Assembly (NCBI GenBank): GCA_009746045.1
Contig: RPFO01001203.1
Span: 1-64,000, forward strand
DNA length: 64,000 nucleotides
Direction of reading: 5' to 3'
Source: Mesostigma viride
Lineage: Eukaryota > Streptophyta > Mesostigmatophyceae > Mesostigmatales > Mesostigmataceae
In this document: in pieces, positions 1 to 57,164 of the stretch
How the letters are laid out: each line of letters begins with the position of its first letter
Position numbering within the stretch: the stretch's first letter is position 1
The notes under the pieces: generated by a model
What the model saw: the letters and a program-made list of their open reading frames with translations, nothing else
Told to the model about the DNA's origin: nothing
Database searches by the model: none
Program-made: the position numbers and the translations under genes

Positions 1-389
1 TCGCCTGTTCGTCGGCACCTTTTCGTCTCTAGTCCTTTTCGAGTCGAAATCGCCTAAGTCCTTGGCCTCGGCGAGCAGTCTGAGGGCCTAGGGCGCGTGC
101 GACGCGTCGTGGGGCGTCGATACTACAGGCGTGGTACGGCGGGCACGGGAACTAAGCGTACCACGTCGTACCGTCCGACAACGTGACCAGCCTGCGCGGG
201 GCGCGGGGAATTAACGGGGCGTACATGGAATTCTACTTCAGACGATACGGAATTACTTCAAAATACGGTGTACTACGCCGTACCGCCCTGCAACGCGTCA
301 GATCTGCGCGGGGCGCGGGGAATCAACTTGACGTACAGGGAACTTTACTTCAGACGCTACGGATCTACTCGAAGTACTCCAAACTAGCC

Positions 390-615
390 GACGTAAGTTT
401 GAAGTACGGAAACCCACGTTGTACTAGTTTGTATTACCTAACTGGCCAGTGACGTAAGTTTGAAGTACGGAAACCCACGTTGTACTAGTTTGTACTACCC
501 AACTGACTAATTACGTAAGTTTGAAGTACGGAAACCCACGTTGTACTAGTTTGTACTACCCAACTGACTAGTTACGTAAGTTTGAAGTACGGAAACCCAC
601 GTTGTACTAGTTGTA
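390..615. repeat. 62-bp tandem repeats, left arm
   Basis: About three and a half units each begin GTAAGTTTGAAGTACGGAAA and run through an ACTAGTTTGTA segment. The mirror is at about 15829-16060. The stretch 1-390 outside the repeats has no credible gene; its short reading frames are repeat-derived. Confidence 0.85.
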
Positions 616-654
616 CTACGCCACACGTGTCCCAGCCATCGCGCGAGACATCTG

Positions 655-990
655 CCACGTGTCGTCATCGACGGTGCACGTGTCGGTCATCGACGGTGCC
701 ACGTGTCGGTCATCGACGGTGCCACGTGTCGGTCATCGACGGTGCCACGTGTCGTCATCGACGGTGCCACGTGTCGGTCATCGACGGTGCCACGTGTCGG
801 TCATCGACGGTGCCACGTGTCGGTCATCGACGGTGCCACGTGTCGGTCATCGACGGTGCCACGCGTCGGTCATCGACGGTGCCACGTGTCGGTCATCGAC
901 GGTGCCACGTGTCGGTCATCGACGGTGCCACGTGTCAGATCGACGTGCCACGTGTCGGTCATCGACGGTGCCACGTGTCGGTCATCGCGT
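655..990. repeat. 23-bp G-box array, left arm (15 copies)
   Basis: Fifteen near-identical units of CCACGTGTCGGTCATCGAC plus four more bases are arranged head to tail. Each unit holds CACGTG, or CACGCG in one copy. CACGTG is the core of the plant G-box recognised by bZIP and bHLH factors. The mirror in the right arm also has 15 copies. Reading frames across it are low-complexity artefacts. Confidence 0.9.
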
Positions 991-1218
991 GACGGCGCGG
1001 GTCATCGCCGGGTCCGAGGACGTCTATAGGACTTAGCCGATTTCGGTCGCGAGGCCGCGGGTCCTACCTAGTGCATGATGGGCGCGCGTGGGATGACTCG
1101 TTGAGCAAGACAAGAGGGTTCCTTTATTCATAATTAAATAGTGCATTACATGACGAGGCTCTCGTTTCGAGCCTCCAATAGGAGGAGCTTGGTAGGGCTG
1201 TCCACCCCTAAGTTCCCA

Positions 1219-1934
1219 CTAAAAATCCGACAGGTCGTCATCGTCCTCGGACTCGTCCAGGGTACCGTCAGAATCGCGGTTCCAGCCTGGATTCCAGTCG
1301 TCGTCCTCGTCGAACGGGTCAAAGTGCTCGTCGAACATGAGATCGATAACGTCCCCCTCGGAGCGTTCGCGGATGAGCTTGCACTTCTTGTCACAGGCCG
1401 CGGAGGGGTGGCCGAAGTCCCTGAGGACCTGCTCGCCGGCCTCTTCGGCGATCTGGTAATCGCAGACGCGCGCGTAGTCCATGCGCCACTCGAAGAACCC
1501 GTCGTGTTCGCGGCAGCGCTTGCAGAGGATGTCGCATTCCTCGCCCCCGTGGAAATGCCGCTTCATCCTCATGAGCGCAACGCGCGTCGTCCTGCGCCCG
1601 CACCGTCGGCAATGAGCGTGGGGCTTCTTGAACAGCTTGCGAGGCCGGATCGGGTCGCGACGGGCCGCGGCGGCCTGCTTGTGAGTCAGGTAAGAATCGT
1701 CTCCCTCGCGCGGCTTTCGGGGCGCCCCGGGCGCCTGGGGAACCGTGTCGGCCTGCGGGGGGCGCGGACAGCACGCGAGGGAAGAATGCACGATCGAGGT
1801 CAGCGAGAGAAACAGGACAAGCGGACACGCGAACAGACTCGGGGAAGAATGGCGGACAGAGAGAGAGTCCTCGCGCCCTCAATTCTTACCTGGACGACCG
1901 CGCCGGACACCGGGGAGGAATTGGGAGTGGCCAT
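1219..1934 (-). CDS. Cys-rich zinc-binding-type protein with acidic tail (left arm copy)
   Basis: Two exons, 1890-1934 and 1219-1752, are joined by a GT-AG intron (1753-1889). They encode 192 aa, the same protein as the right-arm copy. The only coding difference I noticed is silent (GGC against GGA in a glycine codon), so both copies of this gene are intact, unlike its neighbours. A CATAAA element lies just upstream of the start, and AATAAA (as TTTATT, near 1132) lies beyond the stop. The long open frame on the opposite strand (1141-2040) is its shadow. Confidence 0.75.
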
Positions 1935-2147
1935 TTGGGGGAAGATTTCGGGAGATGGGGAGAGGGCTTTCGAGGCCGTGTCTCGAGTGAGAGCTCGTTG
2001 CGTGGGATGCCCGGACAGAGTGGGTGTCCCGTTTATGTAGTGGCGACGGGCTCCCACGGACGGCCAGGATGATCCTCCGATCCACGGTGTGCCAATCACT
2101 CTGCCTGCGCCGCGCCAACCGATCCGATCGGACGCTGCTCGTATCCT

Positions 2148-3008
2148 ATTGGTGGATACTCCAAGCGCCGCGCCAGAGACGGGTGTACCCTCTGTTCCAC
2201 CCTCCCTTTTTGCCCTCTTCACCCCTTTTTTGACCCCCGAAAACCCCCTTCCCGACCCCCGAGAAAGCCCTGTTCCGGTGTTCCGGCCCACCCCCCCTGG
2301 GCCGGTATCATTTGAAAAAAAAAATTTTCTGGGACCGAAATCCTTCGTTTTGGACTTAGCCGTTTTCGGCCTCTCCTCTTCCCCTTTCTCTCCTCCCTCT
2401 CCTTTCTCTCTCCCTCTCCTTTCTCTCTCCTCTCCCTCTCTCTTCTCCCCTCTCTTCCCGTCCCTATATATCCAGGGGTATAGGGTTCTATTTATTTATT
2501 TTTCCTATAAAATCAGTTTTAGAAAAGATACCGGCACGCCATCCCGGAAATAGGATATATAAGACGGTGTCCTATTCACGCCCCACGGTTAAATAGGACG
2601 AATAGCCGCCTATATATACCGTTCCTATTCCCGGAGGGGGCGTGCTGGTATCATTTATAAAACTGATTTTATAGGAAAAATAAATAAATAGAACCCTATA
2701 CCCTGGATATGTAAAGACGGGAAGGGAGAGGAGAGAGAGGGGAGAGGGAAGAGAGAGGGAAGAGAGAGAGAGGAGGCCGAAATCGGCTAAGTCCAAAACG
2801 AAGGATTTTGGCCCCAGAAAATTTTTTTTTTCAGATGATACCGGCCCAGGGGGGGTGGGCCGGAACACCGGAACAGGCCTTTTTCGGGGTCGGGAAGGGG
2901 GTTTTCGGGGGTCAAAAAAGGGGGTGAAGAGGGCAAAAAGGGAGGGTGGAACGGAGGGATGCACCCGTTTCGGGCCGAATCGGCGCGGCGCTCCGAGTAT
3001 CCTCCAAT
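2148..3008. repeat. Nested palindrome within left arm
   Basis: A second inverted repeat is centred near 2584. Its outer ends are ATTGGTGGATACT (2148-2160) and its near-complement (2996-3008). Its core is CCTATT, a 15-nt loop, and AATAGG. Each half holds a pyrimidine- or purine-rich run of alternating CTC/TCT, an A-tract followed by TTTTCTGGG, the GGACTTAGCC motif, and ATTTATTTATTTTTCCTATA. TATATAAG near the centre resembles a TATA box. No gene is visible. The mirror is 13436-14290. Confidence 0.9.
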
Positions 3009-3355
3009 CGGATCGCTCCGTTCGGCGGGAGATCCACGGGGCGGATGTGAACCGCACCTCTCTTCTGGCGCCGTACTCCTAGTATCCACCAATGAAAGGC
3101 GCGCGTACTACCGAGTGACCGGGACGGACCTAGACGGTGACGGATGTAAGCATAAGGCACGTGGCGTCAACGCGCACGGACGCGCCCGGATAGCGGGCTT
3201 GGGACTTGGCCGAATTCGCGGGTCCGCGGTCCTAGCTATGCGCATCTAGCTACCGTGGGAACATGATGGACTCATTGAATAGGGTTCATACACTCTTTTA
3301 TTCATAAATAGGCGGGGTTAAAGCACGTATCTCCTATCTACCCTGGCTATCTACC
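3009..3355. other. Intergenic region 3' of the shared-domain gene, left arm
   Basis: This holds ATTGGTGGATACT on the minus strand (3081-3093), a variant of the GGACTTAGCC motif (near 3206), and the minus-strand AATAAA signal (TTTATT, near 3297) of the gene ending at 3356. I see no coding sequence. Confidence 0.6.
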
Positions 3356-4523
3356 TCACGCGGCGCGCGCGTCGGCGAGGACGCGGGCCGGGGACACGCC
3401 GTCCTCGTGGTATACGGCGGGCACGCCGCGGCTGGGCGGGATGGAGCTGATGCACACGGCGCGCACCCAGGTGGACCCGTCCGTCCTCCGCTCGTACTCC
3501 AGGAACACGTTGGCATTTGGCCGCTTGGAAAGGCCGGCCCGACGCGCCTCGTGCGAGGACAGGATCGCAGCGAGCGGAGTGCGAGCGAAGTCCCTCAGTG
3601 GGACGAGTCCGATCGTGCGCCCCGGCCGGCCGGCGTGGCGAAAGGTGCGGTACACAGTGCCGTCCGGCGCGGTCGCCGGCTCGCTCAGCCAGTAGTCGGC
3701 CCCGACGCCGACTTCGTATGACGGGATCACTTCCACGAACTTCCCCGCGGAGTCGACCCAGCGCGTGCGGCCCTTGGCGTCGTCCTGTCTGCGCACGGTC
3801 GGGTCGCGCGCCACGTGCGCGAACACGGACGAGGCCAGGTGTCGCTTGGTCAGGGGGCCGAATGCGGGCCAGTCCTTGACGCGGTCGGAAAAGTTGGGAA
3901 ACTCGCTGCCGTCCGTCGTCATCTCGGCGGCGGGCCGCTTCTTGGTCGCGGGACGAGGGGCGGGCGCGGGACGAGGCGCGGGCGCGGGCGCCGGCGTGGG
4001 CGGGAGGACGGTGTCGGAGCCCTGCGCCCACGTGCCCGTTTCGTGGGACGGCGAGGCGGGGAAGCCGTAGGCGTCCGCGAACGAGCTGACCGGCGCGCTG
4101 TGCTTGAGCGGGCCGACCACTTGGCTGGAGGCGTCGGTGATGTCCGCCAGCAGGAGGTACGTCCACGGCCCCACTCGCGCGCCTTCGGGGGGCGGGGGAG
4201 GCGCGGCGACGAGCGCGGTGTCCGCGGGGCTGTCCGGGGTCGATTCGCCGCCGGACGCCGCCCCGGCGCAGTCCGGGTCGATCTCGTCGAGCGTCGGGAA
4301 GCTTCCCCATCCCAGCCCTCCATGATGTCCACGTCCTGCATGGTGCGGATGCGAGCATAAGATGCGCGAGTGTGTTAGAGGGAAGAATTCGAGGGGCCAG
4401 ACATGCGCGAGGATGGCTAGATGGGGGAAGAATGCATCTGCTCACCTTTTCGGGGAACAGGCGCAGGATGTCGAAGGACAGTTCGGAGAGGCAGCGCAGG
4501 TCGGGCGTCTGTGCGGAATCCAT
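3356..4523 (-). pseudogene. Shared-domain protein, left arm copy, frameshifted as read
   Basis: The exons mirror the right-arm gene: exon 1 is 4446-4523 and exon 2 is 3356-4335, with a GT-AG intron between. As written, this copy lacks one C in a short homopolymer near 4315, just inside exon 2, so the frame breaks after about 33 residues. The remainder stays open in the right-arm frame. Exon 2 is 980 nt here against 981 nt in the other arm. A sequencing error is as likely as real inactivation. CATAAAG near 4631 (minus strand) fits a TATA element. Confidence 0.7.
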
Positions 4524-5097
4524 GGAGGAAGAATTGGTGGGGAGAGAGTTGGAGAGTCGGAGAGAGCTGGAGAGCTGGACTCGAGAGAGCTGGAGAGCAG
4601 GATGCCCGGACAGTCCGGTTGTCCTCCTCTTTATGCGTTTTTCGTGGGCGAACGGACGCTCCGGATTCGCCGCGATCGGAGGGTCGCCAATCACCCCCGT
4701 GGATAACGCCGATCGTGTGCCAATCACGGCCGACCGTCGGATGGGCCGGGCATCTCCCGCGCCGCGCCATCGTTACCGTGGAGCTGCGCTAGTATCCACC
4801 AATGGGACGCCGGCGATCCATACCGCGGCCGGGACTTAGCGATTTCGGGACTTAGCCATTTTCGGGACTTTGCGACATTGGGACTGTCCCGGCGTCCTGC
4901 TACTCTAACGTCATCGCGCGCGGCCGCGGTCGGGACTGCCTACTTGGGACTTAGCGTCCTACGTGTGCATGATGTTGAGACTTGAGACGGGAACATGCAG
5001 GCAAGGCTTTATTAATCAATAAAATGGTGTTAATCACAAGTCGCTATCTACATGTACACATGATAGCCCCCGGGCTATTCGATAGGATCGTCGCCGC

Positions 5098-6612
5098 TCA
5101 GCAGGAGCGGGCGGCGAGCAAGAGCTGGGCGGGCGTCAGCCCGCGCGCGTGGTACGACGCGACAGTGGGCCGGGCATTGGTCGTCTTGACGAGGGCCACG
5201 GCGCGAACCCACTGCGAACCGTCCGCGGCCGTTTCGGTCTCCAGGATGACGGAGCCGTGCCTCGCCCGGCCGAGTCCGCACTCGTTGAGATCGTCTACGG
5301 ACGGCAGGGAGGCCAGCGGGGTGGACGGAAAGTCCCTCAGGGGCACCAATCCGATCGTACGGCCGATGGCGACGCAGCGGGTGAAGACGGGCGCCGAAGT
5401 CGGCCCGTCGGGCTGGGCCAGCCACTCCTCTGGCCGGCCCAGGCGGGGCTTGAGCTCCGGGACTTCTCGACGCAGTTGCCTCTCGAGTCCTCGTAACGCT
5501 TACCGACGAGGACGCACGTGGTGTCCTTCACGAGCGCCGCCACGACGCGCTGGGTCTGCGGCCCGAACGCGCGCCAGTCGCCTATGCGGGCCGAGAAGTC
5601 CGGCAGGGCGGACGGTGCGGGCAGGGCGGACGGAACGGACTGGACGGGCAGGGCGTACGGGATTGAGGAGGACGGGACGGATACTCGGGCGGTCTGGACG
5701 GACGTCGGCGCGCTCGACGCGCTGGACTCCTGGCGCCGCGCCGTGCGAGGCCTCTTGGGCACGGGGGGCTGCGCGGGCGCGTCGACCGTATCCGGCGCTG
5801 GTTGAAGTAGCTGTCGCCGTAGTTGATGAGGAGTTCCTCCCCCTCGCGGATGTCCCTCAAGGCGTACACGCGGGAGGACAGCAACGCGTCGTTGGGAGTC
5901 TTGAACTCGCAGTTCTGAATGCCCCGGCCCTCGTTGTGGTTGATGAAGGCCGTTTCGTTGCAGTACGTGTCCGCCTCCAGGCACACCGCGTACGTCCGTC
6001 CGTCGAAGAGCGTCAGACGGTAGCATCCGTCCGTCTTCACCTGGGCGGACGACGTGTCCAGATCTCCGTCTGGCAGCCTGTAGTACCGCACCAGGGCGCC
6101 GCCGTACACCCCGATCTCGTCTCCCGCCTTGAAGTCCCGGCCGGCGAACGCGCCGAACGGGCCGTGCGGGTCGTTAGCCGGGAGCGCCCTGACGCGGATC
6201 CGGTCGTTGAGGGAAGATTCGAGCATCCCGAGCTGGGCGCCCACTTCGAGCGTCGGGCACCCCGGGGTCACGGGGGCCGACACGTATTTTATCTTCTGGC
6301 CGCTGCACCCGACCCTGCGGGCCAGGTGCACCTCACTGGGGAGGTACATCCGAATGTACATCTTTTCCGCGGCGCGCACGTTCTTCTCGAATTCTTCTTC
6401 GTGTCGGGGGCGCTTGGCCTGCGTCGGGGAAGAAACGGGCGATCAGGCGCACGGGCAAACAGGTGAGGGAAGAAACGGTGGGTCAGATCGTGTGTGATAA
6501 CCAGGGAGACGGGGCGAAGGAAGCCGCGGTTCGAAGGGGAAGAATTGCTTACCGCGCGGACCTTGGCGGCGGTGCAGGGGTTGGGGGAAGAAACGGTAGC
6601 AGCCGATGCCAT
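5098..6612 (-). pseudogene. SET-domain protein, left arm copy, frameshifted as read
   Basis: Exon 1 (6553-6612, 20 codons) is intact, and the intron (6419-6552) has GT-AG ends. Exon 2 (5098-6418) reads through the whole SET domain. It then lacks one base near 5797, just after the SET C-terminal tyrosine motif, and one near 5463. The right arm has the missing bases at both places but lacks others. Comparing arms implies an uninterrupted protein of about 460 aa. An AATAAA signal (as TTTATT, near 5010) follows the stop. Confidence 0.7.
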
Positions 6613-6734
6613 GGCAAAATAGAGAAGTGTGGGAGGCTAGCTGGGAGCTGGTTTGCTGGAGTGATGGTCGAAGGAATGACAAGACCCGGGTCCTGTGCCC
6701 ACTATGTAGTCCTCGGGTGTCCGGCGGTTACGGG

Positions 6735-7115
6735 ATCGACGCACGGGAGCGATTGGCGAGATCGACGGTGGGTGATTGGCCGGCGCGGACGGGCCTGGAC
6801 GGACGTATCCACGGCACGCCAATCACGGGCACGCCAATCGGGCGAGCCAGTCCCGATCGGACGGCTGCCAATCCCCCGGGCCGCCAATCGGACGAGCCAA
6901 TCCCGTCCGGTGATTGGCCCTCTTCTGGACGGGCCTGGACGGGCGTATCCACGGCACGCCAATCGCGGATCCGCCAATCGGACGGGCCAATCTCGCCCGA
7001 GTGATTGGCCGGCCGCGATCGGGTCCCACAAGAGATAGGATGGTCGGATGCGTGCCACGTGGCGCATATTGATTGGCTGGCGTCTGATCGCCCATCGCGC
7101 CATCCCGTCCGATGG
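6735..7115. promoter_or_regulatory. Bidirectional CCAAT-box promoter, left arm
   Basis: At least 13 copies of GATTGG or its complement CCAATC lie in both orientations between the divergent SET gene (minus) and H3-tail-like gene (plus). They are embedded in longer repeats such as GCCAATCGGACG and GGGCGTATCCACGGCACGCC. TATAAG at 7117-7122 lies about 100 nt before the plus-strand start. Dense CCAAT boxes are classic NF-Y sites. The mirror lies between 9222 and 9829. Confidence 0.8.
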
Positions 7116-7219
7116 GTATAAGTTCTTGGGGGGTGTTCGGATCTCGTCACCAAGCTCTCCGCTCTCCGCAGCTCGAAAAACCCGCAACCCTCCCCATTCT
7201 TCTCCAAAGCCCCCCAAAA

Positions 7220-7668
7220 ATGGCCCCACGCACCAAGGAGTCCGCCCGCAGGCAGGCGAATTATTCCATCACGGGACGCTTCCTGGCCGAGCCATGGCGC
7301 AACCATCCTCTCGTCACGAAATCATTCGAGGATGAATTCGCAGCGTTCGCCGAAACGCTGGAAGACCTCCCTATTCCTCCCTCAGGCCAGAGGGTGGATA
7401 TCGTCGAGGTGGACGCTGGCTCTTCCGCCGCGTCGCCCGTAAAGTCGTTCTACGACCTCCAGAGGGTCGTTTCGGCCCTTCGTTTTGCCCGCGCCGCGAA
7501 GAGGGCACGGGTGAACGCGCCGATTGTCGCTGGCGATGCGCCGGTTGACGGCGATGTGGCGGGCGCAAGTGACGCTCGGCCCAAGTCTCCACGCGCTGAC
7601 GTGGATTGTGAGTTGGTGGCGAGATCGTGACGTCCTCCAGTGGCGAGAAATTCGTTGTCGCCGAGTGA
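7220..7668 (+). CDS. Small basic protein with histone H3-tail-like N-terminus (left arm copy)
   Basis: The start at 7220 is preferred because TATAAG (7117-7122) is about 100 nt upstream and the mirror copy conserves it. The N-terminus, MAPRTKESARRQ, resembles the histone H3 tail ARTKQTARKS at R2, T3, K4, A7 and R8. The rest has a conserved-looking FEDEFAAFAETLED segment and a basic AAKRARVN stretch that could be a nuclear signal. As written the frame stops at 7630 because one G is missing near 7617. The mirror copy has that G and continues to the stop at 7666-7668, giving 149 aa. AATAAA is at 7733-7738. There is no intron. I know of no family match. Confidence 0.65.
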
Positions 7669-7744
7669 ACAATGACCCTGGAAATCCCGACTGACGGGAT
7701 CCACGGAGGCCATTAAATGAAATGGATTGAATAATAAAGCGATT

Positions 7745-8209
7745 GTTACCCCATTCTTGTGTGAATGCATGTCCACGTAGATAGGATCGCGCGGAATCTA
7801 GGATGGCATGACAAGTGGCATGTTCATAGAGATCCTAGATTCTGTTCAGGCTGTTCAGGCAATCCGATCCCGCTGACGTCATCGTTGACCATGATGCAAT
7901 ATAGGATTTTGCGACGGAAAACGGCCACGTGGCACGCGCGGAAGTAGCGTGTAGTGTATCCAGGGTACGGATCACGGAATCGAAAGAGTACGGCCCAAAA
8001 AAAATATCTAAAGCGCATAGTATAAAATGAAGAATCTCAGATACGGTGGATCCTGGGATGTCCAGGGAGGTGTCAGAGATCCGAATATTCGATCGTAACC
8101 GTCGCCTGAACAGGATCTGGGACGTCCAGGGACCCTTGGGTGTACGGACATGACGTCATCTGCTGACGTCAGCACGCCGAGTCGTCGAGTGGTGACGTCA
8201 CCAGGTGCC
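7745..8209. promoter_or_regulatory. Palindrome-proximal control or origin-like region, left arm
   Basis: This non-coding stretch is full of short symmetric motifs. GAATCTAGGAT (7794-7804) and its complement (7832-7842) form an inverted repeat with a 27-nt spacer. CCTGAACAG or its complement occurs several times (near 7844-7860 and 8105). TGACGTCA, a CRE/bZIP palindrome, occurs at 8151-8158, 8164-8171 and 8193-8200, with a TGACGTCAT near 7874. The layout resembles a replication origin or a heavily regulated terminus; that function is inference. Confidence 0.5.
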
Positions 8210-8232
8210 AGCGGAGAAAGCCCGCCCAGGGA
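8210..8232. other. Asymmetric 23-nt centre of the palindrome
   Basis: The arms pair perfectly up to CCAGGTGCC (8201-8209) and GGCACCTGG (8233-8241). The 23 bases between them are not self-complementary, so a folded strand would leave them as a single-stranded loop. This is the geometry expected of a hairpin terminus or of an inverted duplication formed by template switching. Confidence 0.9.
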
Positions 8233-8241
8233 GGCACCTGG

Positions 8242-8291
8242 TGACGTCACCACTCGACGACTCGGCGTGCTGACGTCAGCAGATGACGTCA
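8242..8291. promoter_or_regulatory. TGACGTCA cluster, right side of centre
   Basis: Perfect 8-bp palindromes TGACGTCA at 8242-8249, 8271-8278 and 8284-8291 mirror those on the left. Together there are six sites within 141 bp around the centre. TGACGTCA is the consensus for CREB/ATF-type and many plant bZIP proteins. Confidence 0.8.
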
Positions 8292-8773
8292 TGTCCGTAC
8301 ACCCAAGGGTCCCTGGACGTCCCAGATCCTGTTCAGGCGACGGTTACGATCGAATATTCGGATCTCTGACACCTCCCTGGACATCCCAGGATCCACCGTA
8401 TCTGAGATTCTTCATTTTATACTATGCGCTTTAGATATTTTTTTTGGGCCGTACTCTTTCGATTCCGTGATCCGTACCCTGGATACACTACACGCTACTT
8501 CCGCGCGTGCCACGTGGCCGTTTTCCGTCGCAAAATCCTATATTGCATCATGGTCAACGATGACGTCAGCGGGATCGGATTGCCTGAACAGCCTGAACAG
8601 AATCTAGGATCTCTATGAACATGCCACTTGTCATGCCATCCTAGATTCCGCGCGATCCTATCTACGTGGACATGCATTCACACAAGAATGGGGTAACAAT
8701 CGCTTTATTATTCAATCCATTTCATTTAATGGCCTCCGTGGATCCCGTCAGTCGGGATTTCCAGGGTCATTGT

Positions 8774-9222
8774 TCACTCGGCGACAACGAATTTCTCGCC
8801 ACTGGAGGACGTCACGATCTCGCCCACCAACTCACAATCCACGTCAGCGCGTGGAGACTTGGGCCGAGCGTCACTTGCGCCCGCCACATCGCCGTCAACC
8901 GGCGCATCGCCAGCGACAATCGGCGCGTTCACCCGTGCCCTCTTCGCGGCGCGGGCAAAACGAAGGGCCGAAACGACCCTCTGGAGGTCGTAGAACGACT
9001 TTACGGGCGACGCGGCGGAAGAGCCAGCGTCCACCTCGACGATATCCACCCTCTGGCCTGAGGGAGGAATAGGGAGTCTTCCAGCGTTTCGGCGAACGCT
9101 GCGAATTCATCCTCGAATGATTTCGTGACGAGAGGATGGTTGCGCCATGGCTCGGCCAGGAAGCGTCCCGTGATGGAATAATTCGCCTGCCTGCGGGCGG
9201 ACTCCTTGGTGCGTGGGGCCAT
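8774..9222 (-). pseudogene. H3-tail-like small protein, right arm copy, frameshifted as read
   Basis: This is the mirror of the gene at 7220-7668. ATG is at 9220-9222 and the stop at 8774-8776. Here the C-terminal end is intact, but one C is missing near 9078, breaking the frame about 48 residues in. The two arms are thus broken at different places, and each supplies the base the other lacks. The minus-strand AATAAA signal (TTTATT) lies just below the stop, near 8705. Confidence 0.65.
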
Positions 9223-9828
9223 TTTTGGGGGGCTTTGGAGAAGAATGGGGAGGGTGCGGGTTTTTCGAGCTGCGGAGAGCGGAGAGCTTGGTGACGAGAT
9301 CCGAACACCCCCCAAGAACTTATACCCATCGGACGGGATGGCGCGATGGGCGATCAGACGCCAGCCAATCAATATGCGCCACGTGGCACGCATCCGACCA
9401 TCCTATCTCTTGTGGGACCCGATCGCGGCCGGCCAATCACTCGGGCGAGATTGGCCCGTCCGATTGGCGGATCCGCGATTGGCGTGCCGTGGATACGCCC
9501 GTCCAGGCCCGTCCAGAAGAGGGCCAATCACCGGACGGGATTGGCTCGTCCGATTGGCGGCCCGGGGGATTGGCAGCCGTCCGATCGGGACTGGCTCGCC
9601 CGATTGGCGTGCCCGTGATTGGCGTGCCGTGGATACGTCCGTCCAGGCCCGTCCGCGCCGGCCAATCACCCACCGTCGATCTCGCCAATCGCTCCCGTGC
9701 GTCGATCCCGTAACCGCCGGACACCCGAGGACTACATAGTGGGCACAGGACCCGGGTCTTGTCATTCCTTCGACCATCACTCCAGCAAACCAGCTCCCAG
9801 CTAGCCTCCCACACTTCTCTATTTTGCC
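9223..9828. promoter_or_regulatory. Bidirectional CCAAT-box promoter, right arm
   Basis: This mirrors the left-arm promoter, with at least 13 CCAATC/GATTGG boxes between about 9350 and 9700. It drives the H3-tail-like gene to the left and the SET gene to the right. CTTATA near 9320 (minus strand) is the TATA candidate for the former; ACATAGT near 9734 is a weak candidate for the latter. Confidence 0.75.
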
Positions 9829-11344
9829 ATGGCATCGGCTGCTACCGTTTCTTCCCCCAACCCCCTGCACCGCCGCCAAGGTCCGCGCGGTAAGCAATTC
9901 TTCCCCTTCGAACCGCGGCTTCCTTCGCCCCGTCTCCCTGGTTATCACACACGATCTGACCCACCGTTTCTTCCCTCACCTGTTTGCCCGTGCGCCTGAT
10001 CGCCCGTTTCTTCCCCGACGCAGGCCAAGCGCCCCCGACACGAAGAAGAATTCGAGAAGAACGTGCGCGCCGCGGAAAAGATGTACATTCGGATGTACCT
10101 CCCCAGTGAGGTGCACCTGGCCCGCAGGGTCGGGTGCAGCGGCCAGAAGATAAAATACGTGTCGGCCCCCGTGACCCCGGGGTGCCCGACGCTCGAAGTG
10201 GGCGCCCAGCTCGGGATGCTCGAATCTTCCCTCAACGACCGGATCCGCGTCAGGGCGCTCCCGGCTAACGACCCGCACGGCCCGTTCGGCGCGTTCGCCG
10301 GCCGGACTTCAAGGCGGGAGACGAGATCGGGGTGTACGGCGGCGCCCTGGTGCGGTACTACAGGCTGCCAGACGGAGATCTGGACACGTCGTCCGCCCAG
10401 GTGAAGACGGACGGATGCTACCGTCTGACGCTCTTCGACGGACGGACGTACGCGGTGTGCCTGGAGGCGGACACGTACTGCAACGAAACGGCCTTCATCA
10501 ACCACAACGAGGGCCGGGGCATTCAGAACTGCGAGTTCAAGACTCCCAACGACGCGTTGCTGTCCTCCCGCGTGTACGCCTTGAGGGACATCCGCGAGGG
10601 GGAGGAACTCCTCATCAACTACGGCGACAGCTACTTCAACCAGACGCCGGATACGGTCGACGCGCCCGCGCAGCCCCCCGTGCCCAAGAGGCCTCGCACG
10701 GCGCGGCGCCAGGAGTCCAGCGCGTCGAGCGCGCCGACGTCCGTCCAGACCGCCCGAGTATCCGTCCCGTCCTCCTCAATCCCGTACGCCCTGCCCGTCC
10801 AGTCCGTTCCGTCCGCCCTGCCCGCACCGTCCGCCCTGCCGGACTTCTCGGCCCGCATAGGCGACTGGCGCGCGTTCGGGCCGCAGACCCAGCGCGTCGT
10901 GGCGGCGCTCGTGAAGGACACCACGTGCGTCCTCGTCGGTAAGCGTTACGAGGACTCGAGAGGCAACTGCGTCGAGAAGGTCCCGGAGCTCAAGCCCCGC
11001 CTGGGCCGGCCAGAGGAGTGGCTGGCCCAGCCCGACGGGCCGACTTCGGCGCCCGTCTTCACCCGCTGCGTCGCCATCGGCCGTACGATCGGATTGGTGC
11101 CCCTGAGGGACTTCCGTCCACCCCGCTGGCCTCCCTGCCGTCCGTAGACGATCTCAACGAGTGCGGACTCGGCCGGGCGAGGCACGGCTCCGTCATCCTG
11201 GAGACCGAAACGGCCGCGGACGGTTCGCAGTGGGTTCGCGCCGTGGCCCTCGTCAAGACGACCAATGCCCGGCCCACTGTCGCGTCGTACCACGCGCGCG
11301 GGCTGACGCCCGCCCAGCTCTTGCTCGCCGCCCGCTCCTGCTGA
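9829..11344 (+). pseudogene. SET-domain protein (putative lysine methyltransferase), right arm copy
   Basis: Exon 1 is 9829-9889, the intron 9890-10023 (GT-AG) and exon 2 10024-11344. The SET fold is recognised by GAFAGRDFKAGDEIGVYGG (N-SET), FINHNEGRGIQNCEF (the NH..C..N cofactor pseudoknot) and GEELLINYGDSYF (catalytic Tyr region). A Pro/Ser-rich linker with PKRPRTARR, a likely nuclear signal, follows. The last 170 or so residues are homologous to the C-terminus of the next gene. SET enzymes transfer methyl groups from S-adenosylmethionine to lysines, often on histones. This copy has one extra C in exon 1 (near 9862), lacks a G in the SET domain (near 10303) and lacks a T near 11113. The other arm has none of these three defects. 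AATAAA is at 11429-11434. Confidence 0.75.
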
Positions 11345-11916
11345 GCGGCGACGATCCTATCGAATAGCCCGGGGGCTATCATGTGTACATGTAGATAGCG
11401 ACTTGTGATTAACACCATTTTATTGATTAATAAAGCCTTGCCTGCATGTTCCCGTCTCAAGTCTCAACATCATGCACACGTAGGACGCTAAGTCCCAAGT
11501 AGGCAGTCCCGACCGCGGCCGCGCGCGATGACGTTAGAGTAGCAGGACGCCGGGACAGTCCCAATGTCGCAAAGTCCCGAAAATGGCTAAGTCCCGAAAT
11601 CGCTAAGTCCCGGCCGCGGTATGGATCGCCGGCGTCCCATTGGTGGATACTAGCGCAGCTCCACGGTAACGATGGCGCGGCGCGGGAGATGCCCGGCCCA
11701 TCCGACGGTCGGCCGTGATTGGCACACGATCGGCGTTATCCACGGGGGTGATTGGCGACCCTCCGATCGCGGCGAATCCGGAGCGTCCGTTCGCCCACGA
11801 AAAACGTAAAGAGGAGGACAACCGGACTGTCCGGGCATCCTGCTCTCCAGCTCTCTCGAGTCCAGCTCTCCAGCTCTCTCCGACTCTCCAACTCTCTCCC
11901 CACCAATTCTTCCTCC
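11345..11916. promoter_or_regulatory. SET gene 3' region and promoter of shared-domain gene
   Basis: After the SET gene's AATAAA come three direct copies of the GACTTAG/GACTTTGCG motif. ATTGGTGGATACT (11639-11651) follows, then GTGATTGGCACACGATCGG and GTGATTGGCGACC (CCAAT boxes). The left-arm mirror has GCATAAAG where this arm has CGTAAAG, so a TATA element is plausible there. The 5' leader is a run of CTCTCC/AGCTCTC repeats. Confidence 0.55.
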
Positions 11917-13088
11917 ATGGATTCCGCACAGACGCCCGACCTGCGCTGCCTCTCCGAACTGTCCTTCGACATCCTGCGCCTGTTCCCCGAAAAGGTGAGC
12001 CAGACCTGCATTCTTCCCCCATCTAGCCATCCTCGCGCATGTCTGGCCCCTCGAATTCTTCCCTCTAACACACTCGCGCATCTTATGCTCGCATCCGCAC
12101 CATGCAGGACGTGGACATCATGGAGGGCCTGGGATGGGGAAGCTTCCCGACGCTCGACGAGATCGACCCGGACTGCGCCGGGGCGGCGTCCGGCGGCGAA
12201 TCGACCCCGGACAGCCCCGCGGACACCGCGCTCGTCGCCGCGCCTCCCCCGCCCCCCGAAGGCGCGCGAGTGGGGCCGTGGACGTACCTCCTGCTGGCGG
12301 ACATCACCGACGCCTCCAGCCAAGTGGTCGGCCCGCTCAAGCACAGCGCGCCGGTCAGCTCGTTCGCGGACGCCTACGGCTTCCCCGCCTCGCCGTCCCA
12401 CGAAACGGGCACGTGGGCGCAGGGCTCCGACACCGTCCTCCCGCCCACGCCGGCGCCCGCGCCCGCGCCTCGTCCCGCGCCCGCCCCTCGTCCCGCGACC
12501 AAGAAGCGGCCCGCCGCCGAGATGACGACGGACGGCAGCGAGTTTCCCAACTTTTCCGACCGCGTCAAGGACTGGCCCGCATTCGGCCCCCTGACCAAGC
12601 GACACCTGGCCTCGTCCGTGTTCGCGCACGTGGCGCGCGACCCGACCGTGCGCAGACAGGACGACGCCAAGGGCCGCACGCGCTGGGTCGACTCCGCGGG
12701 GAAGTTCGTGGAAGTGATCCCGTCATACGAAGTCGGCGTCGGGGCCGACTACTGGCTGAGCGAGCCGGCGACCGCGCCGGACGGCACTGTGTACCGCACC
12801 TTTCGCCACGCCGGCCGGCCGGGGCGCACGATCGGACTCGTCCCACTGAGGGACTTCGCTCGCACTCCGCTCGCTGCGATCCTGTCCTCGCACGAGGCGC
12901 GTCGGGCCGGCCTTTCCAAGCGGCCAAATGCCAACGTGTTCCTGGAGTACGAGCGGAGGACGGACGGGTCCACCTGGGTGCGCGCCGTGTGCATCAGCTC
13001 CATCCCGCCCAGCCGCGGCGTGCCCGCCGTATACCACGAGGACGGCGTGTCCCCGGCCCGCGTCCTCGCCGACGCGCGCGCCGCGTGA
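11917..13088 (+). CDS. Spliced nuclear-type protein sharing the SET protein's C-terminal domain
   Basis: Exon 1 is 11917-11994 (26 codons), the intron 11995-12107 (113 bp, GTGAGC to ATGCAG) and exon 2 12108-13088, for 352 aa. This arm is intact. Residues 1-70 are acidic. A Pro/Ala-rich linker ending in ATKKRPAAE, a possible nuclear signal, lies near residue 150. The C-terminal 180 or so residues align with the end of the SET protein: DFSARIGDWRAFGP matches NFSDRVKDWPAFGP, GRTIGLVPLRDF is identical, and both end GxxPAxxLAxxR-like. There is no SET domain here, so this may be a partner or competitor of the enzyme through the shared module. AATAAA is at 13142-13147. I know of no named family. Confidence 0.8.
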
Positions 13089-13435
13089 GGTAGATAGCCA
13101 GGGTAGATAGGAGATACGTGCTTTAACCCCGCCTATTTATGAATAAAAGATTGTATGAACCCTATTCAATGAGTCCATCATGTTCCCACGGTAGCTAGAT
13201 GCGCATAGCTAGGACCGCGGACCCGCGAATTCGGCCAAGTCCCAAGCCCGCTATCCGGGCGCGTCCGTGCGCGTTGACGCCACGTGCCTTATGCTTACAT
13301 CCGTCACCGTCTAGGTCCGTCCCGGTCACTCGGTAGTACGCGCGCCTTTCATTGGTGGATACTAGGAGTACGGCGCCAGAAGAGAGGTGCGGTTCACATC
13401 CGCCCCGTGGATCTCCCGCCGAACGGAGCGATCCG
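13089..13435. other. 3' region of shared-domain gene
   Basis: This contains AATAAA (13142-13147), a GGCCAAGTCCC variant of the repeated motif, and ATTGGTGGATACT at 13351-13363. No gene is seen. Confidence 0.6.
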
Positions 13436-14290
13436 ATTGGAGGATACTCGGAGCGCCGCGCCGATTCGGCCCGAAACGGGTGCATCCCTCCGTTCCACCC
13501 TCCCTTTTTGCCCTCTTCACCCCCTTTTTTGACCCCCGAAAACCCCCTTCCCGACCCCGAAAAAGGCCTGTTCCGGTGTTCCGGCCCACCCCCCCTGGGC
13601 CGGTATCATCTGAAAAAAAAAATTTTCTGGGGCCAAAATCCTTCGTTTTGGACTTAGCCGATTTCGGCCTCCTCTCTCTCTCTTCCCTCTCTCTTCCCTC
13701 TCCCCTCTCTCTCCTCTCCCTTCCCGTCTTTACATATCCAGGGTATAGGGTTCTATTTATTTATTTTTCCTATAAAATCAGTTTTATAAATGATACCAGC
13801 ACGCCCCCTCCGGGAATAGGAACGGTATATATAGGCGGCTATTCGTCCTATTTAACCGTGGGGCGTGAATAGGACACCGTCTTATATATCCTATTTCCGG
13901 GATGGCGTGCCGGTATCTTTTCTAAAACTGATTTTATAGGAAAAATAAATAAATAGAACCCTATACCCCTGGATATATAGGGACGGGAAGAGAGGGGAGA
14001 AGAGAGAGGGAGAGGAGAGAGAAAGGAGAGGGAGAGAGAAAGGAGAGGGAGGGAGAGAAAGGGGAAGAGGAGAGGCCGAAAACGGCTAAGTCCAAAACGA
14101 AGGATTTCGGTCCCAGAAAATTTTTTTTTTCAAATGATACCGGCCCAGGGGGGGGGCCGGAACACCGGAACAGGGCTTTTCGGGGTCGGGAAGGGGGTTT
14201 TCGGGGGTCAAAAAGGGGTGAAGAGGCAAAAAGGGAGGTGGAACAGAGGGTACACCCGTCTCTGGCGCGGCGCTTGGAGTATCCACCAAT
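13436..14290. repeat. Nested palindrome within right arm
   Basis: This mirrors the element at 2148-3008, centred near 13860 (CCTATT 13847-13852, AATAGG 13868-13873). It lies between the AATAAA of one gene and the promoter of the next. The purine/pyrimidine runs differ in length between arms. Confidence 0.9.
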
Positions 14291-14504
14291 AGGATACGAG
14301 CGAGCGTCCGATCGGATCGGTTGGCGCGGCGCAGGCAGAGTGATTGGCACACCGTGGATCGGAGGATCATCCTGGCCGTCCGTGGGAGCCCGTCGCCACT
14401 ACATAAACGGGACACCCACTCTGTCCGGGCATCCCACGCAACGAGCTCTCACTCGAGACACGGCCTCGAAAGCCCTCTCCCCATCTCCCGAAATCTTCCC
14501 CCAA

Positions 14505-15220
14505 ATGGCCACTCCCAATTCCTCCCCGGTGTCCGGCGCGGTCGTCCAGGTAAGAATTGAGGGCGCGAGGACTCTCTCTCTGTCCGCCATTCTTCCCCGA
14601 GTCTGTTCGCGTGTCCGCTTGTCCTGTTTCTCTCGCTGACCTCGATCGTGCATTCTTCCCTCGCGTGCTGTCCGCGCCCCCCGCAGGCCGACACGGTTCC
14701 CCAGGCGCCCGGGGCGCCCCGAAAGCCGCGCGAGGGAGACGATTCTTACCTGACTCACAAGCAGGCCGCCGCGGCCCGTCGCGACCCGATCCGGCCTCGC
14801 AAGCTGTTCAAGAAGCCCCACGCTCATTGCCGACGGTGCGGGCGCAGGACGACGCGCGTTGCGCTCATGAGGATGAAGCGGCATTTCCACGGGGGAGAGG
14901 AATGCGACATCCTCTGCAAGCGCTGCCGCGAACACGACGGGTTCTTCGAGTGGCGCATGGACTACGCGCGCGTCTGCGATTACCAGATCGCCGAAGAGGC
15001 CGGCGAGCAGGTCCTCAGGGACTTCGGCCACCCCTCCGCGGCCTGTGACAAGAAGTGCAAGCTCATCCGCGAACGCTCCGAGGGGGACGTTATCGATCTC
15101 ATGTTCGACGAGCACTTTGACCCGTTCGACGAGGACGACGACTGGAATCCAGGCTGGAACCGCGATTCTGACGGTACCCTGGACGAGTCCGAGGACGATG
15201 ACGACCTGTCGGATTTTTAG
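14505..15220 (+). CDS. Cys-rich zinc-binding-type protein with acidic tail (right arm copy)
   Basis: Exon 1 is 14505-14549 (15 codons), the intron 14550-14686 (137 bp, GTAAGA to CCGCAG, phase 0) and exon 2 14687-15220, for 192 aa. The central part has CRRCG, then a basic MRMKRHFH stretch, then CDILCKRC and a later C-x-C-like pair. This is consistent with one or two zinc-binding knuckles, although no named finger class fits. The final 40 or so residues are strongly acidic (DEHFDPFDEDDDW, ESEDDDDLSDF), as in activation domains or histone-binding tails. ACATAAAC near 14402 fits a TATA element, and AATAAA is at 15311-15316. Both arms encode the same protein, so it is the best-supported gene of the element. 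Confidence 0.82.
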
Positions 15221-15449
15221 TGGGAACTTAGGGGTGGACAGCCCTACCAAGCTCCTCCTATTGGAGGCTCGAAACGAGAGCCTCGTCATGTAATGCACTA
15301 TTTAATTATGAATAAAGGAACCCTCTTGTCTTGCTCAACGAGTCATCCCACGCGCGCCCATCATGCACTAGGTAGGACCCGCGGCCTCGCGACCGAAATC
15401 GGCTAAGTCCTATAGACGTCCTCGGACCCGGCGATGACCCGCGCCGTCA

Positions 15450-15791
15450 CGCGATGACCGACACGTGGCACCGTCGATGACCGACACGTGGCACCGTCGA
15501 TGACCGACACGTGGCACCGTCGATGACCGACACGTGGCACCGTCGATGACCGACACGTGGCACCGTCGATGACCGACGCGTGGCACCGTCGATGACCGAC
15601 ACGTGGCACCGTCGATGACCGACACGTGGCACCGTCGATGACCGACACGTGGCACCGTCGATGACCGACGCGTGGCACCGTCGATGATCGACACGTGGCA
15701 CCGTTGATGATCGACACGTGGCACCGTCGATGACCGACACGTGGCACCGTCGATGACCGACACGTGGCACCGTCGATGATCGACACGTGGC
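15450..15791. repeat. 23-bp G-box array, right arm (15 copies)
   Basis: This is the mirror of 655-990, written as ACACGTGGCACCGTCGATGACCG. Two copies have CGCGTG. Three copies near the outer end have GATCGA where others have GACCGA; in the left arm the matching outermost copy appears as a deletion. The copy number is the same in both arms. Confidence 0.9.
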
Positions 15792-15828
15792 AGATGTCTC
15801 GCGCGATGGCTGGGACACGTGTGGCGTA

Positions 15829-16060
15829 GTACAAACTAGTACAACGTGGGTTTCCGTACTTCAAACTTACGTAACTAGTCAGTTGGGTAGTACAAACTAG
15901 TACAACGTGGGTTTCCGTACTTCAAACTTACGTAATTAGTCAGTTGGGTAGTACAAACTAGTACAACGTGGGTTTCCGTACTTCAAACTTACGTCACTGG
16001 CCAGTTAGGTAATACAAACTAGTACAATGTGGGTTTCCGTACTTCAAACTTACGTCGGCT
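15829..16060. repeat. 62-bp tandem repeats, right arm
   Basis: Mirror of 390-615. From 16061 to 16447 the arm continues without a gene. Confidence 0.85.
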
Positions 16061-16447
16061 AGTTTGGAGTACTTCGGAGTAGATCCGTAGCGTCTGAAGT
16101 AAAGTTCCCTGTACGTCAAGTTGATTCCCCGCGCCCCGCGCAGATCTGACGCGTTGCAGGGCGGTACGGCGTAGTACACCGTATTTTGAAGTAATTCCGT
16201 ATCGTCTGAAGTACAATTCCATGTACGCCCCGTTAATTCCCCGCGCCCCGCGCAGGCTGGTCACGTTGTCGGACGGTACGACGTGGTACGCTTAGTTCCC
16301 GTGCCCCGCCGTACCACGCCTGTAGTATCGACGCCCCACGACGCGTCGCACGCGCCCTAGGCCCTCAGACTGCTCGCCGAGGCCAAGGACTTAGGCGATT
16401 TCGACTCGAAAAGGACTAGAGACGAAAAGGTGCGCGACGACAGGCGA

Positions 16448-16883
16448 TATCACTGTACCAGGGCGCATGTATAGTACATTTCGTGCCATGTGGCGACGGC
16501 ACAATAGACGAGATGCACGAAGCTCGCCAGTGCAGCAAATGGATATATAACGAAAGCAATGGTCGCCTGGCACGGAGAAGGGGCACACGATTGGATATTT
16601 AAGGATATTTAACGATTTATTGACGCATGCGATCCGGGGCATCGCCCCAAACGCGTAGATACTAAATGTCGATGTCGAAAAAGCGAGCAGCGTTCGGCAT
16701 TGTTGTCTGTCAACCGATGCATTTCCAGGTCATCACGTCCATGCCAGCGGACAGGAGACGGTTAGGACGTAACGCCAGCGTCTGGAACGCGTTTATATTG
16801 CGTCGACGTCTTCCCACGCATTGCCATCGTCTCCCCTTTCCATTTTCGTCGACGAAACTCACGCAATATCCGACAACGACGCC
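16448..16883. other. Region between palindrome and flanking gene
   Basis: Single-copy within the window. TTTATATT at 16792-16799 is a plausible TATA element for the following gene. No gene is seen. Confidence 0.5.
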
Positions 16884-17426
16884 ATGAATCCCAGGCCCAC
16901 CAACGCAGGGGGCGAGGCGATGGCGATGGTTGAAAGCTTGCACATCGCGTGCAGCCAGCTCGCGAATCGACTGCGCGATGCCAGGACGTCGCTGAGGCGC
17001 GTCTGTCGCGAGCATGGCGAATTCGAACAGCGCCTGAGCGACGTCGACAATGAATCCCCCGTTCACGCGATCCACGACGCGTGCCTCGGCCCCGTGACAG
17101 AGGATGGAGGACGCATCCTGCTGTTTCACATCACGTGGGACAGCGGCGAACAGGAGCTCGTCCAGGTGACCAGTCTCAACACAGGCTGCGACGATGCGGT
17201 CAAGGCGATGGCTGCCACATTTTCGTCTACTCGTAACCTGCCAGCAGGGGGGCACGTTCCCGTGACGCGAGAGGAAATGCTGGAGTTGTGGTCGATGCAC
17301 TTGCGCCTGCACGGGGTGATGGAGGCCGTTTTCCCTCCTCCCATAATTGGCCAGGGGACGATGCAGGGGATGTTGTTTGACCCCAGCACCCCCCTGGATT
17401 TCAATGCCATGTTTGCTGGCTGGTGA
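16884..17426 (+). CDS. Unknown 180-aa protein beside the palindrome
   Basis: The frame is open from 16821, but ATG at 16884 sits at a plausible distance from TTTATATT (16792-16799). AATAAA follows at 17479-17484, the same signal used by the palindrome genes and unlike the two host genes. There is no visible intron. The protein is mostly helical-looking at its N-terminus (heptad-like LHIACSQLANRLRDARTSLRRV) and has a later VTREEMLELWSMHLRLHGVM segment. I recognise no domain. By position and signals it could be the next gene of the same element; if the palindrome continues leftwards, its mirror would lie before base 1. Confidence 0.6.
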   Translation: MNPRPTNAGGEAMAMVESLHIACSQLANRLRDARTSLRRVCREHGEFEQRLSDVDNESPVHAIHDACLGPVTEDGGRILLFHITWDSGEQELVQVTSLNTGCDDAVKAMAATFSSTRNLPAGGHVPVTREEMLELWSMHLRLHGVMEAVFPPPIIGQGTMQGMLFDPSTPLDFNAMFAGW

Positions 17427-17589
17427 CATAAGTGGCTACTTGATAGCCATGATAATGACCTACCATGGCAATTGAATTAATAAAGGCATGATGTTCTCCA
17501 TGACAATGAGTTCTAGGAATTAGGGTAATTCATATTATTATTAATGTCTGCCTGGCCATTCCCCAGGAAAACGGGGTCACTCTGCAAAA

Positions 17590-17820
17590 ATTTTGCTGCG
17601 TGGCTGGAAAGGAGGGTGCGTGGCTGTGTGGCTGCGTGGCTGCGCTGCTGCGTGGCTGCGTGGCTGCGTGGCTGCGTGGCTGCGTGGCTGCGTGGCTGCG
17701 TGGCTGGCTGGGGGGGGGGGGGGGTGCCGGGTGCGTGGATGCGTGGATGTGTGGCTGGGTGGGTGCGTCACTGCGTGGCTGGCTGGCTCTGTGGCTGCGT
17801 GGGCGGCTGGATGGCCGGGT
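17590..17820. repeat. GCGTGGCT minisatellite
   Basis: Imperfect 8-bp repeats of GGCTGCGT, with a run of G at about 17710-17723. Reading frames here are low-complexity. A short open stretch after GCATGCAG near 17905 could be a terminal exon, but nothing supports it. From 17820 to 18490 I see no gene. Confidence 0.85.
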
Positions 17821-27102: not shown

Positions 27103-27677
<575 letters not shown>

Positions 27678-27685
27678 TCATACAT

Positions 27686-28217
27686 ACCCTCCCTCCCTCC
27701 CTCCCTCCCTCCCTCCCTCCCTCCCTCCCTCCTCCCTCCTCCCTCCCTCCCTCCCTCCCTCCCTCCTCCCTCCCTCCCTCCTCCCTCCCTCCCTCCCTCC
27801 CTCCTCCCTCCTCCCTCCCTCCCTCCCTCCCTCCTCCCTCCCTCCCTCCCTCCTCCTCCCTCCCTCCCTCCCTCCCTCCCTCCCTCCCTCCCTCCCTCCC
27901 TCCCTCCTCCCTCCCTCCCTCCCTCCTCCTCCTCCCTCCCTCCTCCCTCCCTCCCTCCCTCCCTCCCTCCCTCCCTCCTCCCTCCCTCCCTCCCTCCCTC
28001 CCTCCCTCCTCCTCCCTCCCTCCCTCCCTCCCTCCCTCCCTCCCTCCCTCCTCCCTCCCTCCCTCCCTCCCTCCCTCCCTCCCTCCCTCCTCCTCCTCCC
28101 TCCCTCCCTCCCTCCTCCCTCCCTCCCTCCCTCCTCCCTCCCTCCCTCCTCCTCCCTCCCTCCCTCCCTCCCTCCCTCCCTCCCTCCTCCTCCCTCCCTC
28201 CCTCCCTCCCCCCTCCC
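27686..28217. repeat. (CCCT)n/(CCT)n polypyrimidine microsatellite
   Basis: About 530 bp of CCCTC and CCT units form a pure pyrimidine strand, abutting the GCAC tract. Mirror-symmetric polypurine/polypyrimidine DNA can form triplex (H-DNA). Leu-Pro-Pro-Ser frames are artefacts. Confidence 0.97.
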
Positions 28218-28219
28218 TC

Positions 28220-31435: not shown

Positions 31436-31439
31436 TTAA

Positions 31440-38241: not shown

Positions 38242-38859
38242 TTAGGTGCTATACGCGTTCTAAAAAAAGCTTACAACGCGATATATCGCGTTCTAATTAA
38301 AAAAACACGGGTTAATTAATTTATAACATTTAATATGGTAGCTCGAGCCCGCCATGATCTTATCCGCTTTTGAGTCTTTCAGGATGATGGATATCGCGTT
38401 TGCATGCCATCATTATGTCCTAGACTATCACTTGGATGACATATCCACAGCAATAGAGCACTCATGTGTGTGATTGCGGTTTCCTGGAGACTCCAGGAAA
38501 CCGTCGCGACAACTGGCGCCTCAGCCAGATCTCAAGGTGCTAGCTCCGGATTGTACTGAAGGATGCCGACAAGATGTCAGCAGAAGAGCAGGCCGCTGTG
38601 GCGCACCGGGACGACTTCCTGGCAGTCTTCGACGCCAGGGGCAGTCGCCAGCAGTTACACGCCATTCCGCCGCCGGGTGATATTTCAGTGATCGATCCTT
38701 CGCGGTATCGCTGCCAAGTACCGTCTGGCTGCCCGCACCCTCCCCTCCTTGCCTCCGCGCCGACAGCTTGCTGTCCACCGGCCGCCATGCGCGCACCGAC
38801 AGTGGTCGCGCCGCTAGGCAGATGCTCCGCCGCAACCTAGGGACCCGACCGCCAAACCT

Positions 38860-44449: not shown

Positions 44450-57164
<12,715 letters not shown>

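Follow-up and report, generated by a model that had tools for sequence, protein, structure and literature searches.

We analysed a 64,000-nt window of the Mesostigma viride genome (the window being the whole stretch), which starts at base 1 of its contig (C1731). Self-BLAST revealed that positions 1–16447 pair with their own reverse complement at 99.4% identity and, together with the arm alignment, placed a 23-nt loop at 8210–8232. The initial annotation had described a 16-kb palindrome; its two arms and its loop were confirmed, but both edges had to be redrawn. The left arm is truncated, since the contig itself starts at the first base of the window. On the right, homology with the other aligned copies continues to 17595 (17596 in one) and then stops, in six of six, so that position 16447 is no boundary and the right arm extends to 17595. 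A full arm measures about 9.3–9.36 kb (8233–17595) and the whole palindrome about 18.5 kb; the 16-kb unit with four genes reflects truncation of this longer element by the contig. In the window copy the second arm stops at the contig start, where the junction with the second flank is not seen. The features are as follows.

1–8209, minus strand: left arm, truncated where the contig starts and lacking the distal 1.15 kb
1219–1791, minus strand: gene for the Cys-rich acidic protein, left arm
3356–4341, minus strand: second gene, left arm
5098–6612, minus strand: SET gene, left arm, frame-shifted at places that differ from the right-arm copy
7220–7630, plus strand: gene for the 149-aa basic-start protein, left arm, frame-shifted near its end
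8202–8240, no strand: tip hairpin, an 8-bp stem (CAGGTGCC/GGCACCTG) flanking the 23-nt loop at 8210–8232
8233–17595, plus strand: right arm, complete
8774–9222, minus strand: 149-aa basic-start protein, right arm, frame-shifted here; Mesvir1 relative P0015
9829–11344, plus strand: SET gene, right arm, frame-shifted relative to P0001; exon 1 from 9829, GT-AG intron at about 9890–10023, exon 2 from 10024
11917–13088, plus strand: second gene (carrying the SET protein's C-terminal module), right arm, GT-AG intron at about 11995–12107
13431–14295, no strand: nested imperfect palindrome of ~0.86 kb and ~80% identity, which occurs again in module X (below)
14648–15220, plus strand: Cys-rich acidic protein, right arm, the coding exon probably beginning after the AG near 14686
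15452–16055, no strand: tandem repeats with 23- and 61-bp units, close to the outer end
16821–17426, plus strand: fifth conserved frame, 201 aa, beyond the coordinates first annotated
17573–17595, plus strand: outer end GGGGTCACTCTGCAAAAATTTTG, the same in other copies

As originally proposed, each arm carries genes for a SET protein, a Cys-rich acidic protein, a small protein with a basic start, and a second protein whose C-terminal module matches that of the SET protein (40% identity over 185 aa). The genes are also spliced, as proposed, the GT-AG introns of the SET and second-protein genes matching Mesostigma gene models. The count of four genes did not survive, since a fifth conserved frame lies inside the element; this frame has no breaks and shows 95.0–98.5% identity in six of six other copies. 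The SET domain scored 43 bits against a curated profile cut-off of 22.4. As printed, the two window arms are separated by 57 alignment events, including many 1-nt indels by which the frame is shifted in either arm. Frames in other copies are mostly open, but of the five other copies that cover SET exon 2 only two carry it intact, a count to which both read errors and genuine decay may contribute. Relatives of the three element proteins searched were found exclusively in M. viride. Rfam and tRNA scans each returned zero matches, and neither the PHROGs comparison nor megablast against phages yielded anything informative.

A palindrome that touches contig base 1 and whose arms differ largely by small indels might be suspected of being a fold-back artefact of long reads at the end of a contig, the more so as the available text of the genome report describes an assembly of the species from PacBio RSII reads (PMC6947507). 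We nevertheless regard this explanation as extremely improbable. All 24 candidates were scored and the palindrome centre lies at 24 loci, in full at 16, and two inverted arms were present at all 15 loci read out of those 16, several lying deep inside megabase scaffolds; the 15 two-armed loci refute a lone read artefact as a general explanation. The loop bears no adapter trace, and same-locus arms are separated by 2–8 substitutions in 11 of 14 loci. Two further palindromes (C2210 and C1454) possess both ends, the centre match being absent, which counts against the favoured reading given below. Copies at contig ends (C1095 and C1402) had suggested a hairpin telomere at chromosome ends, which was rejected because other copies lie inside megabase scaffolds.

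A single exact outer end adjoins 14 different flanks and recurs in six of six aligned copies; exact ends in many flanks are a trait of DNA transposons. The 24 loci and 14 flanks exclude a host cluster present once per genome, the outcome named at the outset as contrary to the proposal. A broader variant of that idea is an ordinary cluster of host genes multiplied by segmental duplication, and abundant segmental duplications are reported for the species in the available text of PMC6947507; some copies also have flanks in common and could represent one place, either duplicated or assembled into alternative contigs. Block duplication does not, however, give one exact outer end against 14 different flanks, and the restriction of relatives of the three searched proteins to M. 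viride likewise speaks against this origin, which we consider very unlikely. The earlier proposal of a selfish element or integrated DNA virus is therefore upheld in its first half, that of a selfish multi-copy element, whereas its second is not shown, no viral hallmark gene having been found among the frames scanned. We somewhat favour the view that the palindrome is a mobile DNA element of M. viride, present in many copies and mainly in the form of an inverted dimer, with arms of ~9.3 kb joined tip to tip.

Eight of the nine two-ended copies carry a fixed 48-bp linker and a repeated module, X, on one side, and a target duplication of at least 2 bp was found in none of the nine. X also occurs by its own end, which likewise carries GTGACCCC, against three different flanks where the palindrome is absent. 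Scaffold C1 holds a composite of 87.7 kb in which two palindromes are oriented towards each other with inverted X between them; TGA stands at both of its outer flanks, and both interior samples read N. None of six X frames matched a Pfam family above the cut-off, comparison of one of them with solved structures gave nothing informative, and no transposase was detected among the frames scanned (those of the element and the six of X). Within the assembly sequence, neither a replicase nor a free hairpin form was found.

The one-sided linker and X, together with the C1 composite, also bear on a viral explanation, in which a large endogenous virus with a linear genome would have fused telomeres, seen as the palindromes, with its hairpin-ended arms joined tip to tip. 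This is conceivable but doubtful, as is its corollary that each arm would be a long terminal repeat of an integrated or concatemeric form, with X as part of the virus body. In one gene model (P0013) the N-terminus of the second protein is joined to an EsV-1-7-type Cys motif, just below the Pfam cut-off. According to the available text on PBCV-1, its 2.2-kb inverted repeats end in short, partly unpaired hairpins with 35-nt loops, similar in plan to the arms described here, but they lie at both ends of a 331-kb free virus genome (PMC7019647), whereas the Mesostigma element has ~9.3-kb gene-bearing arms fused in chromosomal DNA. A SET enzyme (vSET) in chloroviruses is a further likeness. The integrated Ectocarpus phaeovirus element EVEc, in the portion of its description consulted, likewise contains an internal palindrome resembling telRL, thought to be resolved to hairpin telomeres, but this is a short site within a large virus genome (PMC13236599), in contrast to a palindrome of about 18.5 kb. 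Against the viral explanation, no capsid, polymerase or packaging genes were found among the frames scanned (DNA_pol_B_2 gave zero matches, with the control likewise silent), five of five scans of viral contigs gave no relative, the sampled interior of C1 reads N on both occasions, and X stands by its own end at three flanks that lack the palindrome.

The centre carries a short inverted repeat with a spacer, a trait of fold-back palindromes. An 8-bp stem with a loop of 13–23 nt was present at all 15 loci read, whereas the loop sequence differs between loci, with eight forms among the 15. Substitutions per 1.7 kb averaged 3.7 between the arms of one locus vs 10.8 between loci, a within-locus closeness that none of 20000 random pairings equalled. 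The partner arm was, however, the nearest or tied for nearest in only 8 of 28 arms, so within-locus copying is not a full account. Two copies (C777 and C1579) start exactly at 8202, the base of the stem. In C1579, element-end sequence lies immediately left of the tip, which identifies this copy as a one-arm deletion and rules out a tip lying free in host DNA; the left side of C777 was not element sequence in the comparison made.

If the palindrome is such a mobile inverted dimer, its origin would be a linear form with one arm, a strand of which turns back on itself at the tip before being copied. Turnaround or gene conversion may then keep both arms alike, and processing at the tip could alter the loop or remove one arm. 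Mobility would probably require a recombinase, perhaps provided by X, that acts on the outer end. Palindromic gene amplification in Tetrahymena rDNA starts from a short inverted repeat, and the central short inverted repeat and two long identical arms seen here fit fold-back copying of that type; unlike the rDNA, the Mesostigma element is dispersed and mobile and has a single, exact outer end. Foldback-type DNA transposons also consist of long inverted repeats with almost no interior, but the arms of the Mesostigma element are filled with genes and nearly identical, and neither a known transposase nor a target duplication was found.

More tentatively, the self-complementary inverted dimer might represent a new class of eukaryotic selfish DNA: a linear replicon of ~9.3 kb with a hairpin tip, turnaround copying and exact-end integration, which would possibly travel beside a helper X and carry its own spliced genes, headed by one for a SET enzyme that would act on host chromatin. 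The titles and abstracts consulted on Mesostigma in connection with giant viruses, virophages, palindromes and mobile elements, and on palindromic elements of algae, a scope outside which most subscription papers fall, contain no description of the element. Near-perfect long palindromes are generally considered unstable. Here one stands at many sites of a single genome, with genes unbroken in several copies, offering a natural system for the formation, persistence and breakage of long palindromes. It is also a candidate for a DNA replicon with hairpin ends in a streptophyte alga.

Manipulation of host chromatin had also been proposed. The SET domain lies above its cut-off, but the histone-tail likeness of the basic-start protein is near chance: the likeness score is reached by 608 of 20000 shuffles of the N-terminal 20 residues, and among 1102 other ATG-started N-termini of the window two score higher. 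Mimicry of histone H3 is therefore kept as a weak sequence likeness, and the footing of the chromatin claim is one SET domain. Of the steps proposed, the least supported is a possible action of the predicted SET protein and its partner proteins on chromatin of the host, which would keep the element expressed. Because a SET enzyme heads its genes, the element allows a direct test of whether mobile DNA acts on chromatin.

Self-BLAST of the window returned positions 1–16447 as an inverted self-match (99.4% identity), and alignment of the arms placed a 23-nt loop at 8210–8232, as the initial annotation had claimed. Its choice of 16447 as the element edge was not sustained: homology in six other copies from the same assembly crosses this position and stops at 17595 (n=5) or 17596 (n=1), followed by distinct sequence of its own in four of the six and by a common module in two (C770 and C1929). 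Genome search placed the window at bases 1–64000 of contig C1731 (72,500 bases in total; assembly 439.9 Mb, 2243 contigs), and the left arm is cut short because the window's left edge is the contig start. This is likely the published NIES-296 assembly, described in PMC6947507 as 442 Mb, produced with PacBio RSII, Canu and Pilon.

Revised arm
8233–17595: complete arm, based on the ends of six aligned copies

A query spanning the centre (7950–8490) was run against the whole assembly, with 24 of 24 candidates scored, and matched the entire centre on both strands at 16 loci.

Loci matched by the centre query
Full centre (16): C1731, C97, C797, C1 (twice), C1690, C1461, C223, C446, C474, C117, C1324, C113, C2076, C317, C1762
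Partial centre (8): C1929, C1095, C1402, C1106 (three times), C777, C1579

All of the full-centre loci but C1762 were read with their flanks, the window's own included, 15 in total. All 15 carry two inverted arms, with 96.9–99.9% identity to the window's right arm at loci other than the window; at C797 the second arm stops after 0.43 kb at the contig end. Several copies sit far inside megabase scaffolds, which, together with the two-armed form at every locus read, rules out a chimeric read as a general explanation of the palindromes. Some of the 24 loci may be alternative contigs of the same place, so separate insertions would be fewer than 24; C117, C1402 and C1095 may be one locus, since C117 unites left and right flanks seen singly in C1402 and C1095, respectively.

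The outer end, queried as the last 300 bases (39 of 39 candidates scored), adjoins 14 different flanks, and nine copies retain both ends, including C2210 and C1454, which gave no centre match in the assembly search.

Two-ended copies and outer flanks
Two-ended copies (9), 9.6 to 19.6 kb: C2210, C2076, C97, C117, C1454, C1 (twice), C1324, C1579
Flanks 1–6: window; C1402 (also left of C117); C1824 (also right of C97); C1095 (also right of C117); C2022; C446 (also C2076)
Flanks 7–14: two outer sides on C1; C1324 (also C1762, for 140 bp); C2210; C1579; C1454; C777; C1690

N runs lie at or close to the element in C1824 and C2022. One side of eight of the nine two-ended copies continues through a fixed 48-bp linker into another repeat, module X, and C117 is the sole two-ended copy with other DNA at both sides. 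No target duplication reaching 2 bp was found in any of the nine.

Module X, whose 8.8 kb were read in C1929, is a repeat in its own right, with at least 86 matches from the scoring of 22 among 188 first-look candidates. In C1929, C770, C2210, C576 and C317 the palindrome adjoins X position 1. At least eight other matches begin at positions 47–49, and in the three of these that were read a different flank precedes CAACCGCTTCGCGACG each time. By eye, CAA followed by GTGACCCC occurs at similar offsets in both the X end and the palindrome end, which suggests from sequence that one recombinase could act on both. None of six X frames contained a Pfam family above cut-off, and one gave a weak laminin-G match. 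On scaffold C1, two palindromes are opposed across an inverted X, and the outer flank of each shows TGA. The 87.7 kb between their outer ends is a scaffold distance, since the interior is N in both samples taken.

All 15 loci read share the stem CAGGTGCC/GGCACCTG at the centre, and the loop it encloses takes eight forms (13–23 nt). No adapter trace was found. The motif TGACGTCA occurs eight times in the window (1.0 expected), always near the centre. Matches in C777 and C1579 start at 8202, the stem base; in C1579 element-end sequence (17375–17396) lies six bases to the left, and most of one arm has therefore been lost. C1929 retains 161 bp of the second arm; in two of the C1106 copies 31 bp remain past the loop, ahead of a flank common to both. 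Breakage at the stem base would be the result expected from cleavage of an extruded hairpin.

This anatomy suggests a fold-back-and-copy origin, in which the tip of a linear form would fold back, the folded tip would be copied into an inverted dimer, and insertion would proceed via the outer end. Alternatively, the arms may be the terminal repeats of a large virus, joined to each other through hairpin ends, with analogues in PBCV-1 (PMC7019647) and in the internal telomere-like site of an Ectocarpus endogenous virus (PMC13236599). A polymerase-family search was negative, and its control was silent as well.

The fold-back origin can be set beside the divergence between arms, compared at 14 loci (C797, with its cut arm, omitted). 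Same-locus arms differ by 0–8 substitutions per 1.7 kb beside the centre (mean 3.7), against 10.8 between arms of different loci, and none of 20000 random pairings was as low as the same-locus mean. An arm's own partner is nearest, or tied, for only 8 of 28 arms, which counts against the simple picture. The window's arms are 57 alignment events apart, many of them 1-nt indels, and frame shifts relative to Mesvir1 proteins affect the SET and 149-aa genes in both arms, at differing places. Among other copies, the fifth frame (16821–17426) is intact in six of six, the 149-aa protein in all four that contain it and SET exon 2 in just two of five; the breaks may be read errors in repeats or genuine decay.

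The gene content proposed earlier was largely borne out: the SET frame exceeds the Pfam cut-off (43 versus 22.4 bits; best solved relatives EZH2 and KMT5A chains, with weak E-values), the second protein shares its C-terminal module, and the SET and second genes contain GT-AG introns at the joints of Mesvir1 models. The supposed histone-tail character is weak: 608 of 20000 shuffles resemble the H3 tail at least as well as MAPRTKESARRQ does. Searches at E ≤0.001 returned 11 clusters for the SET frame, three for the 172-aa frame and three for the 328-aa frame (just the 8000 candidates with most words in common scored). All 16 distinct identifiers are labelled jgi/Mesvir1, the name used for Mesostigma viride. 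Model P0012 fuses the SET, second and acidic proteins in window order and starts with sequence across the centre, on the opposite side, as expected of a gene prediction running across the palindrome. In the Mesvir1 model P0013 (Mv06694), the second protein's N-terminus is fused to a Cys motif of EsV-1-7 type (24.7 bits, cut-off 25), a tail absent from the window and loci compared.

Two motifs recur within the arms. ATTCTTCCC has 10 matches in the window (0.5 expected), all within the arms. By our placement they fall in the introns of the SET and second genes or in one that the acidic gene probably has, which may point to a shared origin of these introns or to a splicing signal. GGACTTAGNCGATTTCG occurs 12 times on both strands (0.01 expected), confined to the two arms, and is a possible protein-binding or replication site.

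Recurrent motifs
ATTCTTCCC: 9897, 12010, 12055, 14589, 14652 and mirror positions
GGACTTAGNCGATTTCG: 45–61, 1029–1045, 2352, 2778, 3202, 4848 and right-arm mirror positions

Elsewhere in the window, self-BLAST detected a 1.66-kb inverted repeat (94.5% identity, 3.5 kb spacing) and a tandem duplication, and other regions contain repeats and conserved domains.

Other features of the window
27106–28219: long GCAC-type and CCCT-type tetranucleotide arrays, as repetitive open frames
31432–33091 / 36590–38248: inverted repeat
41527–43283: tandem duplication, ~1.17 kb, 98.6%, offset 588 bases
48869–51642: 60-bp minisatellite, ~46 copies, 97% matches, several frames open, adjoining an alanyl-tRNA synthetase exon (52169–52846, Pfam E 4.6e-47)
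61585–63024: glycosyltransferase family 29 (sialyltransferase) frame, 55.6 bits (cut-off 23)
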